Part shown: positions 22,985 to 30,755 of the stretch, in pieces | Numbering within the stretch: the stretch's first letter is position 1 | Layout: every line of letters starts with the position of its first letter | Origin: Niabella sp. | GTDB lineage: Bacteria; Bacteroidota; Bacteroidia; Chitinophagales; Chitinophagaceae | Direction of reading: 5' to 3' | Assembly: GCA_017744795.1 (NCBI GenBank) | Contig: JAGIAQ010000005.1 | Location: forward strand, 3,969 to 67,968 | DNA length: 64,000 nucleotides | Notes under the pieces: generated by a model | What the model was told of the DNA's origin: nothing | The model's input: only the letters and a program-made list of their open reading frames with translations | The model's database searches: none | Translations under genes and position numbers: made by a program

Positions 22985-23205
22985 CGTCATACGGCCGGCG
23001 AGGCTTAGCCCAGGCAATTCTGCAATAAGAGCACGTCATCCCGAACGAGCCGGACCCTGCCCAACCAATTCTACAATAAGGACGCGTCATCTCGACGAGG
23101 AGGGCCGCGCCCGACGAGGAGAGATCTCCTGCTAAAAAAAACGTACTGCAACTTAGTTTCACTGCTACGAGAACGAGATTCCTCGCTTCGCTCGGAATGA
23201 CGGTT
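22985..23205. repeat. mosaic repeat copy 1 (CGTCATCTCGACGAGGAGGGCC... family, with ~50-bp tandem subunits)
   Basis: CGTCAT subunit starts at 22985, 23034 and 23085; matches the reverse complement of 30570-30755. Confidence 0.85.
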
Positions 23206-23607: not shown

Positions 23608-23829
23608 ATGACTAAACTAGGAGAATATTTAGCCCTAAAATCTGTCAACAAATCAGAAGTAGCTCGCAAAACTGGACTTACAAAGGCAAGAATGAATGAA
23701 CTCACTTTAAATGAACGTAGTCATTTAAGAGCCGAAGAGCTATACTTAATTGCATTGGCAATTGATGTGAAGCCAATTGAATTGTTGGAGTATGTATGTG
23801 AGGGGGTGAAGCTGGTGGGGCAGAGGTAG
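23608..23829 (+). CDS. small XRE-type helix-turn-helix protein
   Basis: NKSEVARKTGLTKARMNELTLNERSHLRAEELYLIALAIDV. Confidence 0.75.
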   Translation: MTKLGEYLALKSVNKSEVARKTGLTKARMNELTLNERSHLRAEELYLIALAIDVKPIELLEYVCEGVKLVGQR

Positions 23830-23869: not shown

Positions 23870-24526
23870 CTACAAGTTGTCTATTTTTTTTGGTTCCAAT
23901 TTTTTATATTCACCAATCATGAAATCATAAAACGATGAAATTATATAAACCACGATCAATAAGAAATTTAAAAGAAAATATAGCGTTATTATTTTATATA
24001 GATTTGTAACAATCCCTCTAATTGTTAAAGGAATATCAATCAAATTTAAATTGAATTCAAATCTTATTTCAGCGATATCGAAAGAGCAATAATTAGTCAA
24101 TAAATTTAACGCTAAAAGTAAAATACAAAGTAGAGCAATCAAAGTTTCATACAGGGTGAGAACTGTTATTTTTTTAAAAAAGTTTATCAACCGTCTATTT
24201 ATGTTAGCTCTTTCTCTAGATTGTCTTGCTCCCTGAAGTACGGCCTCGGTATTTTTAAATTTATCGTAAAGTGCTATTAGAAACGTGAATAGCAATCCGA
24301 TAAACAATGATAAGGCACTTATAATGTAACCACAAAAATTTTCGGAAAAGCTTTTTTGGAAAATAATCGTCATTGATATAGCAATAAAGAGGATCACCCA
24401 TTGCTTTTTTGTAAAATAGAACTTTGGTTTGTTTTTTTCATTTTCTTCCTTCTTGGCACCAATCTCCTTGTACTGATACTCATGAGCTTGATTTATTAAT
24501 TCACGTATATTGCCATTAAAGTTCAT
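23870..24526 (-). CDS. uncharacterised membrane protein, about 4 TM segments
   Basis: Hydrophobic stretches QWVILFIAISMTIIF, FCGYIISALSLFIGLLFTFLIAL, YETLIALLCILLLALNLL, IITLYFLLNFLLIVVYIISSF; overlaps the upstream ORF by 11 nt. Confidence 0.75.
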   Translation of the reverse strand: MNFNGNIRELINQAHEYQYKEIGAKKEENEKNKPKFYFTKKQWVILFIAISMTIIFQKSFSENFCGYIISALSLFIGLLFTFLIALYDKFKNTEAVLQGARQSRERANINRRLINFFKKITVLTLYETLIALLCILLLALNLLTNYCSFDIAEIRFEFNLNLIDIPLTIRGIVTNLYKIITLYFLLNFLLIVVYIISSFYDFMIGEYKKLEPKKIDNL

Positions 24527-25525
24527 CTAATTGGTTTTTTTCCTCAATTTCGGCTAAAATCTCTTTTAGCACTCTTGCGCAAACGTTTTTTACCTGATCA
24601 AAATTTGGAACGCCTGACTTTTCATTTAATTCTACGCCTTCATTTTTTAAGAATATGGTTGGCCGAATACTTGATATTTGCTCATTAATGTCAAAGTGGG
24701 CTTGACCTTCGTTATTTTTAATAAATACTTTTGCCTTTTCGCCAAGGGGTTTATCCTCAAATTTCTTTTTACCAAGTATTTTTGAAAGGGCGCTTATATT
24801 TTTGCCTTCTGGCTTAACTTTTCCACTTGAAGAGATAGGCTCAATGCTCAAAGTAACCTTAAATCCTTCAATTGAAGAATCAATCTCACTTCTAAGATTG
24901 TTGCCAATTCCTACGATCTGTTTATATTTAAACATAACGAGGTTGGACGTTTCTGTAAACTCCTTAACAACACGATCAGGTACGTAATTGTTAAACACGA
25001 GATCAAAGTAATAATCAGGGCAACTAAACATTTTCTTTATTAGTTCTTTAAAAGGTTGTTGAACTGTTTCCTCCGTATAAGACTGAATTAATAGAACTCC
25101 CCTGAAGCTATCTAATGGTGCATACAAGTAAAAATAATATTTATCCAATACTGCCTTTGTTGAGCTTATCGATTCTCTTTCTTTGTTGTTTTCAATATCT
25201 GCTAGTTGTTTTGTGATACCATATTTCCCTCCATCGATTGTACCTTCTATTATAAAAGAATCAATGTGCGATTTAATTGATGTATTAGGTACGCCATCGC
25301 GCATTTGTTGAATCCCTAGAACTTTTTGAGATTTTTTGTCGTTAACTAATGCAGCGCCGCCTAATGTTTTTAGAAAATCTTGGAAAAGTTGATTGAAAAG
25401 ATGATTGTCATCGGCTGTTCCTTCTGCCAAGAATTTTTTTCGCAAAAATGTCTAAAAGAGGGGTCTTCATCAGTCGCGGGGCGTAATTCTATCAAATAAG
25501 CATTTAATATTGGGTTTAATGGCAT
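24516..25525 (-). CDS. uncharacterised soluble protein of a two-gene module; in-frame N-terminus separated by an A7 frameshift
   Basis: 309 aa ORF (24516-25445) begins at TTG; an ATG-started frame from 25525 (MPLNPILNAYLIELRPATDEDPSFRHFCEKN) joins it by -1 shift at A-AAA-AAT. Confidence 0.6.
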
Positions 25526-27845: not shown

Positions 27846-28700
27846 ATGAAAAAAGACAAAACACAACAAGCATTATCAGTGTTTGAACAAATTAAGCACA
27901 CGGATGAAAACGGCAATGAATTTTGGATGGCGAGGCAGCTTGCCAAAACACTTGATTATACTGATTTTAGAAATTTTTCCGGCGTAATTGAAAAGGCCTG
28001 GGAGGCCTGTAAAAACAGCGGGCATAACCCTTTAGAACACATCGTTGAAACCAACGAGGTGTTAATTGCCGGGCAGGGAGCAAAACAAACTTACTCAAGC
28101 TATAAACTATCCCGTTATGCCTGTTATTTAATTGTACAAAATGCAGATCCGTCCAAAGAAGTAGTGGCACTTGGCCAAAGTTATTTTGCCGTACAAACAA
28201 GATTGCAGGAAATAACGCAGATGGAAGCCTATAACCGCCTTAGCACCGAAGATGAAAAAAGGCTTTTTCTGCGTAATGAAATGACTAAGCACAATATCCA
28301 TTTAGCTGCTGCCGCCAAAAATGCCGGAGTAATAACTTCTCTTGACTATGCCATTTTCCAAAATCATGGTTATATGGGTTTGTACGGGGGGCTTGATGCT
28401 AAAGGCATACATAAGAGAAAAGGGCTTGCGAAAAGCCAGCAAATACTTGACCATATGGGAAGTACCGAACTGGCTGCCAATTTGTTTCGTGCCACGCAAA
28501 CAGAAGAAAAGTTGCGAAAGGAAAACATTCAAGGTAAGCCAAAGGCCAACCAAACTCATTTAGAGGTAGGCAAAAAAGTACGCCAAACTATTAAAGAACT
28601 TGGAGGAACCATGCCTGAAAACCTGCCTACGGCCAGCAGCATTAAAAAACTGGAAACAGCGGCTAAACCAAAACAATTAAAACCCAAGCGGAAAAACTAG
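27846..28700 (+). CDS. dinD: DNA damage-inducible protein D (DinD)-like
   Basis: FWMARQLAKTLDYTDFRNF, KLSRYACYLIVQNADPSKEVVALGQSYFAVQTR. Confidence 0.88.
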   Translation: MKKDKTQQALSVFEQIKHTDENGNEFWMARQLAKTLDYTDFRNFSGVIEKAWEACKNSGHNPLEHIVETNEVLIAGQGAKQTYSSYKLSRYACYLIVQNADPSKEVVALGQSYFAVQTRLQEITQMEAYNRLSTEDEKRLFLRNEMTKHNIHLAAAAKNAGVITSLDYAIFQNHGYMGLYGGLDAKGIHKRKGLAKSQQILDHMGSTELAANLFRATQTEEKLRKENIQGKPKANQTHLEVGKKVRQTIKELGGTMPENLPTASSIKKLETAAKPKQLKPKRKN

Positions 28701-28775
28701 TTTGAATTGCACCCACTGCTCTTCACAGCCGCCGGCCATCAATAATTATTTTAACTTTACCTAAAATGTATAACC

Positions 28776-29618
28776 ATGAAAAAAGAATTGATCACCGAAT
28801 TATTACAAAAATTTGAAGCTGCCTGTTATGAAATAAAGGGCGTGGAATGCTGGAGCGCCCGGGAGCTGCAACCCATTTTGGGCTATAGCCGCTGGGAAAA
28901 CTTTTCTAATGCGCTGGATAAAGCACGTAAATCCTGCGAAGCCGCCGGGGAAACGGTGACGGACCATTTTCGTGATGTCACGAAAATGGTCATATTGGGA
29001 AGTGGATCTCAACGCGAAGTTCAGGATATTGCCCTTACACGTTACGCCTGCTACCTGGTAGCGCAGAACGGCGATCCGGCCAAACCGGCCATTGCTTTTG
29101 CACAAACTTATTTTGCGGTGCAAACCCGCAAGCAGGAAATTATTGAACAGCGCCTGCTGGAAGTAGCAAGGGTATCGGCCCGGGAAAAACTGACAAAATC
29201 GGAGAAAAAGCTGTCGGGCATTATTTACGAACGCGGGGTGGATGAGCAAAGTTTTGCGCTGATTCGCTCCAAGGGAGACCGGGCATTGTTTGGCGGCTTT
29301 AGCACGGCGGATATGAAAAAGAAACTGAGCGTGCCTGCTAATAGAGCCCTGGCAGATTTTTTGCCTACGCTTACCATAAAGGCCAAGGATTTTGCTACGG
29401 AGCTAACCAGTCATAACGTAGTGGAAAAAGACCTGAAAGGCAGCCAGCAAATATCAAAAGAACATGTAGACAATAATAAAGCGGTAAGGGATATGCTTAA
29501 TGAGCGGGGCGTACAACCGGAAACATTGCCCCCGGCGGAAGACATAGCCAAACTGAAACGAAAGCTGGATGGCGATGCAAAAAAGATATTGAAGGATACC
29601 CGGAAAAAAAACATTTAG
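28776..29618 (+). CDS. dinD: second DinD-like protein
   Basis: WSARELQPILGYSRWENF, ALTRYACYLVAQNGDPAKPAIAFAQTYFAVQTRKQE. Confidence 0.92.
   Translation: MKKELITELLQKFEAACYEIKGVECWSARELQPILGYSRWENFSNALDKARKSCEAAGETVTDHFRDVTKMVILGSGSQREVQDIALTRYACYLVAQNGDPAKPAIAFAQTYFAVQTRKQEIIEQRLLEVARVSAREKLTKSEKKLSGIIYERGVDEQSFALIRSKGDRALFGGFSTADMKKKLSVPANRALADFLPTLTIKAKDFATELTSHNVVEKDLKGSQQISKEHVDNNKAVRDMLNERGVQPETLPPAEDIAKLKRKLDGDAKKILKDTRKKNI
28962..28991. repeat. perfect inverted repeat inside second dinD
   Basis: GACCATTTTCGTGA-TG-TCACGAAAATGGTC, 14-bp arms. Confidence 0.95.
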
Positions 29619-29729: not shown

Positions 29730-30139
29730 GCTTATTTTGGGCTATGGATGCCGAAAAGCTGTTGTTTAATTATTAACACTTCTGAGCCGGTTCTTGCAAT
29801 TGGTTTACACAGGATAACGCACATACATCCTGCGAAGCCATAGGGAACGCGACCGCAGACCATTCTGTTGATCTCAACGAGATGGTTACACGGGAGAAAT
29901 TGTGAAGGACGGGGCTGACCAAAAAGCAGGGAGTTAACAATTAGCCGGAAATCCGAAAAGACGGGAAGGTGCTGTTTTTCAATATCTTAAGACTTGCCGC
30001 TTCACCGCCTTACCGGCCCACAAAATACTTTTTAGTCACCCCCGTCATATCCGGAAGCCGTTCGCGTCTTGTAGTTCAGACCTTCATAAACAATGCAACC
30101 CTGCTGCTTTCCTTACCCTAAAAGTTTAATTTTGCTGCC

Positions 30140-30569: not shown

Positions 30570-30755
30570 CGTCGTCCCGAACGAAGCGAAGCGGAGAGAG
30601 GGATCTCGTTCTCATAGCAGTTAAGTAAGTTACAGGATGTTTTTAAGCTCGAGATCTCTCCTCGTCGGGCGGGGCCCTCCTCGTCGAGATGACGCGTTCT
30701 TATTGGAGAATTGCCTGGGCAAAACCCTCCTTATCGGGATGACGCCTTAAAAATA
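30570..30755. repeat. mosaic repeat copy 2, inverted relative to copy 1
   Basis: GAGATCTCTCCTCGTCGGGCGGGGCCCTCCTCGTCGAGATGACGCG and flanks. Confidence 0.85.

Follow-up and report, generated by a model that had tools for sequence, protein, structure and literature searches.

The window analyzed in this study is a 64,000-nucleotide stretch of the genome of Niabella sp. from the Chitinophagaceae family of Bacteroidota (GenBank assembly GCA_017744795.1, contig JAGIAQ010000005.1, positions 3,969 to 67,968 of the forward strand). It contains two neighboring genes, further referred to as A and B, which the first-pass annotation, made from the sequence alone, had described as a RexAB-like module consisting of a soluble sensor-like protein and a four-TM effector candidate. 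The features of the locus are presented in Table 1.

Table 1. Gene pair A-B and neighboring features of the accessory region (positions in the window)
Feature	Position	Strand	Description
Gene A, main frame	24516..25445	minus	ORF, 309 aa from TTG at 25445; true N-terminus not in this frame; putative soluble RexA-like (CarolAnn gp44-type) sensor (homologues; hhalign P=3.4e-7)
Gene A, original N-terminal segment	25370..25525	minus	other frame; ATG at 25525; homologous part approximately the first 30 codons
Gene B	23870..24526	minus	218 aa, ATG start; four hydrophobic segments; putative RexB-like effector
Small Cro/C1-type HTH gene	23608..23829	plus	PF13443 HTH_26, E=5e-10
Imperfect inverted repeats, left arm	23002..23192		flanks the accessory region
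Imperfect inverted repeats, right arm	30590..30726		partner of the 23002..23192 arm

The pair is real, and gene A (25525..24516 when both of its frames are included) shares with gene B an 11-nt overlap, ATGAACTTTAA, exactly as had been claimed. The hydrophobic segments of the B protein were also borne out and begin near residues 43, 62, 119 and 172. Gene A had been given a length of 335 aa, which is obtained only by reading across a frame break that the annotation did not flag, so that the gene is not one open frame. Its N-terminus, MPLNPILNAYLIEL...SFRHFCEK, is encoded in a frame different from that of the main ORF, and the shift coincides with an A7 run near positions 25434-25440, approximately 90 nt after the ATG codon. 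This N-terminus is similar to that of intact relatives, e.g. from genomes G893 (MSFEPKLEIYKLCLLKKEDGKHETFRGLFRKKF) and G963. Structures were predicted with AlphaFold from single sequences. For B the pLDDT was 66, and the model consisted of four long helices and an additional N-terminal one; for A, the candidate for a RexA fold (RdgC-like dimer clamp), the pLDDT was only 34.

The small HTH regulator mentioned in the first-pass annotation exists; it is convergent with gene B, and its association with the pair is not kept in the relatives, hence it is probably not a part of the A-B module. Likewise, the region is indeed bounded by imperfect inverted repeats, 85–90% alike, that enclose the A-B pair together with the HTH gene and DinD genes. 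The genome has one more copy of the repeat, on another contig, which makes three, and therefore the flanking repeats do not prove that the region is a mobile element. The DinD (DNA-damage-inducible protein D) genes form a tandem of two at positions 27846-29618 and have identical 38-nt leaders; signs of a further, decayed copy are seen near position 29812. No match to the Bacteroidota-type promoter pattern was found near the A-B pair. The pair is located in a bacterial chromosome outside any recognized prophage, and no lysogeny module was recognized beside it: given the convergent HTH gene, the locus has no cI-rexA-rexB immunity region.

Searches with the A and B proteins taken singly produced no convincing match in NCBIfam, PADLOC, PHROGs, PDB and plasmids, and neither did the search of gene A, the only one of the two compared with phages. 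Sequence searches of PDB with single proteins and with both family profiles yielded nothing significant, and one scan of the genome-contig collection found no relative. Among the PADLOC-DB models, none matched gene A, gene B matched only ZorB (E=0.047, in the TM region), and no match was found for either A or B from genome G263. The only match over a curated cut-off was a short Rep3_C stretch in the window A protein (Pfam, E=1e-4, just above the cut-off). This identity was dropped, as the scan of nine further A members showed no such match. Matches to PFU, KdpA, DUF554, DUF2663 and similar domains occurred in single members, were isolated and scored below the cut-offs.

The first clear relative was obtained by a protein search in the phylum sample: the A protein from G263 is 28% identical over most of the length, and the gene after it codes for a four-TM protein of 201 aa, itself a match to B. 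Starting from this match, relatives were gathered by iterated alignment and profile searches. In total, 16 A loci besides that of the window were found in the phylum, and two homologues on Acinetobacter plasmids; one candidate from G271 (L004) was left out, since it is interrupted by stops and no ORF in it reaches 90 aa. The family is diverse, with identities between A proteins mostly within 11–26%, and its distribution is patchy: a single-protein search identified it in one of 199 genomes of the family to which the window belongs, and the counts were 10 of 392 for the class and 7 of 398 for the phylum sample. The genome of one relative carries SusC/SusD-like genes, suggesting that it comes from Bacteroidota. 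The Acinetobacter plasmids (L036, L037) are small, and a BrnT/BrnA toxin-antitoxin system and antibiotic resistance genes are found on them a few genes away from the pair; both A and B are annotated there only as hypothetical.

The two-gene architecture is conserved. In 18 of the 19 loci the gene immediately downstream of A is a B, intact or decayed, which mostly overlaps A or is separated from it by a few tens of nucleotides; the exception is G529, where A has no B-like gene nearby. Since these loci are independent, the arrangement is not due to chance. Conversely, when the B profile was run blind against 184 genomes, all the loci recovered were A-B loci: five were pairs already known, and one, in G299, was new. 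The gene just upstream of the latter B, missed by the A searches, encodes an A of divergent sequence (hhalign P=8e-10, score 70; shuffled profiles at most 18). In G893 (L022:10565-11605) and G963 (L021:10830-11855), which belong to two different families, B is followed by a third gene that overlaps its end. The G893 product is a nucleoid-associated protein of the NA37 kind (E=4e-32), with which the G963 one shares 41% identity, so a three-gene variant of the RexAB-like module carrying the NA37 protein possibly exists in these two genomes.

A weak match to DUF4747 (PF15931, E=0.0045) was observed in one A member (G1084 or G597, by elimination), the window A having none. Because of this match and the gene layout we turned to the literature on actinophages, where the cytosolic halves of the two-gene systems of CarolAnn, Sbash, Butters and Toast are called RexA-like (PMC6426606, PMC6426596, PMC7542560, PMC11077077). 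CarolAnn gp44, Sbash gp30 and Butters gp30 likewise lack a match to the Pfam DUF4747 model; the DUF4747 search in 147 genomes of the class produced no match, but neither did its controls. CarolAnn gp44/gp43 and Sbash gp30/gp31 are exclusion systems composed of a cytosolic and a four-TM protein, both genes being required, and they were proposed to act by membrane depolarization and ATP loss (PMC6426606, PMC6426596).

The A-family profile was compared by hhalign with a profile of seven actinobacterial and actinophage A proteins (from CarolAnn, Sbash, Butters, Toast, a Sejanus phage, and two Rhodococcus plasmid homologues). The A proteins are homologous to this group (P=3.4e-7, score 57.7, 218 columns): the scores of 20 column-shuffled decoys did not exceed 14.5 (15.8 over all column-shuffled decoys), the reversed profile scored 12.3, and seven unrelated proteins of the window scored 10.9–14.4 against the same A-family profile. 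For B, the combined family profile matched the actinophage B proteins weakly (P=0.0067, score 23.9; decoys at most 11.0, reversed 14.5), as did the Acinetobacter B proteins alone (P=0.0016), and the kinship of B to gp43/gp31 is suggestive only. Like the CarolAnn and Sbash systems, the pairs studied here consist of a soluble protein (approximately 320–370 aa) followed by an overlapping or adjacent gene for a four-TM protein. They differ in that the identity is only about 10% over aligned columns, in that CarolAnn and Sbash genes belong to prophages whereas the present ones are chromosomal or plasmid-borne, some of them within restriction loci, and in that the frame is broken in the window copy. 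Thus the homology of A and the layout support placing the pairs in the CarolAnn/Sbash/Butters kind.

With Butters gp30/gp31 and Toast gp42/gp41, both of which are part of the matching profile, the family shares the gene order and the four-TM partner; the differences are that those systems are phage-borne and have a larger A (403 aa in Butters). In addition, Butters gp30 is able to block phage by itself, gp31 having a modulating role (PMC7542560). By analogy, A might be the anti-phage effector itself, sequestered by B at the membrane until infection frees it. The presence of gp30 in the profile homologous to the A family and the lone A in G529 are in favor of such an arrangement. It is nevertheless improbable, given that both genes are indispensable in CarolAnn and Sbash and that RexBpp is the toxic partner of its pair (PMC12894663); the recurrent loss of the B frame (G988, G387) would also fit B being the costly part, without proving it.

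The comparison with lambda RexA and RexB, which the first-pass annotation had proposed along with that with KwaA/KwaB, had a negative outcome. No A or B member scanned matches Pfam PF15969 or PF15968, and the hhalign P-values against three RexA and three RexB sequences, 0.24 for A and 0.35 for B, are within the range of decoys. The pairs could still be true orthologues of lambda RexAB, with which they share the layout, similar sizes, the four-TM partner and the proposed way of working, and published structural comparisons link RexA to RexApp (Dali) and to Toast gp42 (AlphaFold) (PMC12894663, PMC11077077). Since profile and Pfam searches revealed no kinship, and the cI-rex immunity-region arrangement is missing, we regard this as highly improbable. 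Hence membership in lambda RexAB proper fails at the sequence level, and "works like RexAB" stays the best reading. Judging by the published description, the layout is also that of RexABpp from Pseudomonas putida (PP_5643-5644), a prophage-borne system, unlike the window pair, with a DNA-binding A and a four-TM growth-suppressing B that damages membranes (PMC12894663).

A search with the PADLOC models identified no match to any Kiwa model among the proteins scanned. Kiwa (KwaA/KwaB) also pairs a four-TM protein with a soluble one.

Several pairs are embedded in restriction loci. In G302 the gene order is HsdM-HsdS-A-B-McrB-like-McrC, and this genome has a single N6_Mtase gene. In G1084 the pair lies beside hsdM-hsdS-hsdR, with an integrase-like gene, recognized by reading of the sequence, nearby. 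In G988 it is located between an EcoRI-type methylase with a GmrSD_N-HNH nuclease and a Schlafen AlbA_2 protein, and in G263 it is followed by a gene for a SEFIR/TIR protein. Most loci have no adjacent recognized defence gene. The gene-neighborhood enrichment suggested in the first-pass annotation was assessed with one marker, N6_Mtase (PF02384), in 16 genomes: 3 of the 16 pairs are within 6 kb of such a gene versus 0.14 expected (Poisson P=4e-4). The 6-kb limit was set after the loci had been seen; at 2 kb and 10 kb the P-values are approximately 0.002 and 0.001, respectively. The pairs are thus found inside or next to restriction loci at a frequency above chance. Data published in 2026 include 17 "DUF4747/CarolAnn" operons behind CapK/CapS regulators, CapKS often being sandwiched between restriction and such immune operons (PMC13373217), and therefore the existence of such systems as stand-alone immune operons is not wholly new.

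The pair could instead be a module for stress response, replication control or competition that is found near restriction systems by chance, e.g. a membrane immunity protein accompanying RHS toxins or a plasmid/replication regulator. In G905 and G951 (L025, L026) the pair is a few genes from RHS-like sequences, which may mark an accessory hot spot or be a coincidence, and the weak Rep3_C match of the window A would point in the direction of replication. Such a role appears unlikely in view of the profile homology of A to experimentally tested defence proteins, the enrichment beside N6-methylases, and the patchy distribution with mosaic neighborhoods.

Five of the 16 pairs in the phylum are disrupted. 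The break affects A in the window, both A and B in G597 and G916, and B in G988 (one in-frame stop) and G387 (two in-frame stops); the in-frame stops are not homopolymer errors. The broken A or B genes of members other than the window copy include those in L008 (G597), L024, L020 and L053. A disrupted relative, with an internal stop, is also known for Butters (PMC7542560). In G597 (L008:1343-2298) the shift in A lies at an A9 run close to the N-terminus, in the part of the gene where the window has its A7 run, and runs of A6-A8 near the A start are present in several intact copies. For the window and G597, the break may come from an assembly error, decay or slippage, all of which fit. With the reading frame of A interrupted so close to its N-terminus, the pair in the window is probably non-functional, barring slippage or a sequencing error. 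The frequent inactivation suggests that carrying the module has a cost.

Slippage at the poly-A run may turn the sensor on and off, in which case the "broken" copies would be silent yet recoverable. In the three-gene branches, the NA37 protein (YejK/NdpA-type) of G893 and G963 may be a second DNA-binding subunit coupled to RexA-like DNA sensing. Taken jointly, these two readings are rather doubtful.

The homology of A, the constant pairing and the restriction-system surroundings back the RexAB-like layout proposed at the outset, and we consider it likely that A-B is a chromosomal two-gene RexAB-like (CarolAnn/Sbash) abortive-infection system with A as the sensor and B as the membrane-permeabilizing effector; for the window pair itself the defence role is putative. 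By analogy with characterized relatives, A would be cytosolic, would probably dimerize and would bind DNA without sequence specificity. As in CarolAnn and Sbash, it would sense the replication of a phage or one of its proteins. Once activated, A would then trigger B, as suggested by RexABpp (PMC12894663), and B, a predicted four-helix membrane protein, would open or damage the inner membrane. The ion gradients and ATP would collapse, growth would stop, and the phage would not be propagated.

RexAB is among the oldest known phage-exclusion systems. Only five RexAB-like systems were counted as described in a 2026 paper (PMC12894663). To suggest, as had been done initially, that the present one may be undescribed was too strong, given that the published CarolAnn/Sbash-type two-gene systems are of the same kind; it would rather represent a distant new branch of an already known kind of system, found in a phylogenetic and genomic setting that is new as well, and both the branch and the settings appear undescribed in the literature searched. 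The family is diverse, occurs in another phylum and on Acinetobacter plasmids, is apparently independent of prophages, and sometimes resides inside restriction loci. Such a spread speaks for RexAB-like pairs being immune modules of a general kind rather than lysogeny accessories only. The many homologues may now be used for finding conserved residues, building structures and testing how A triggers B.
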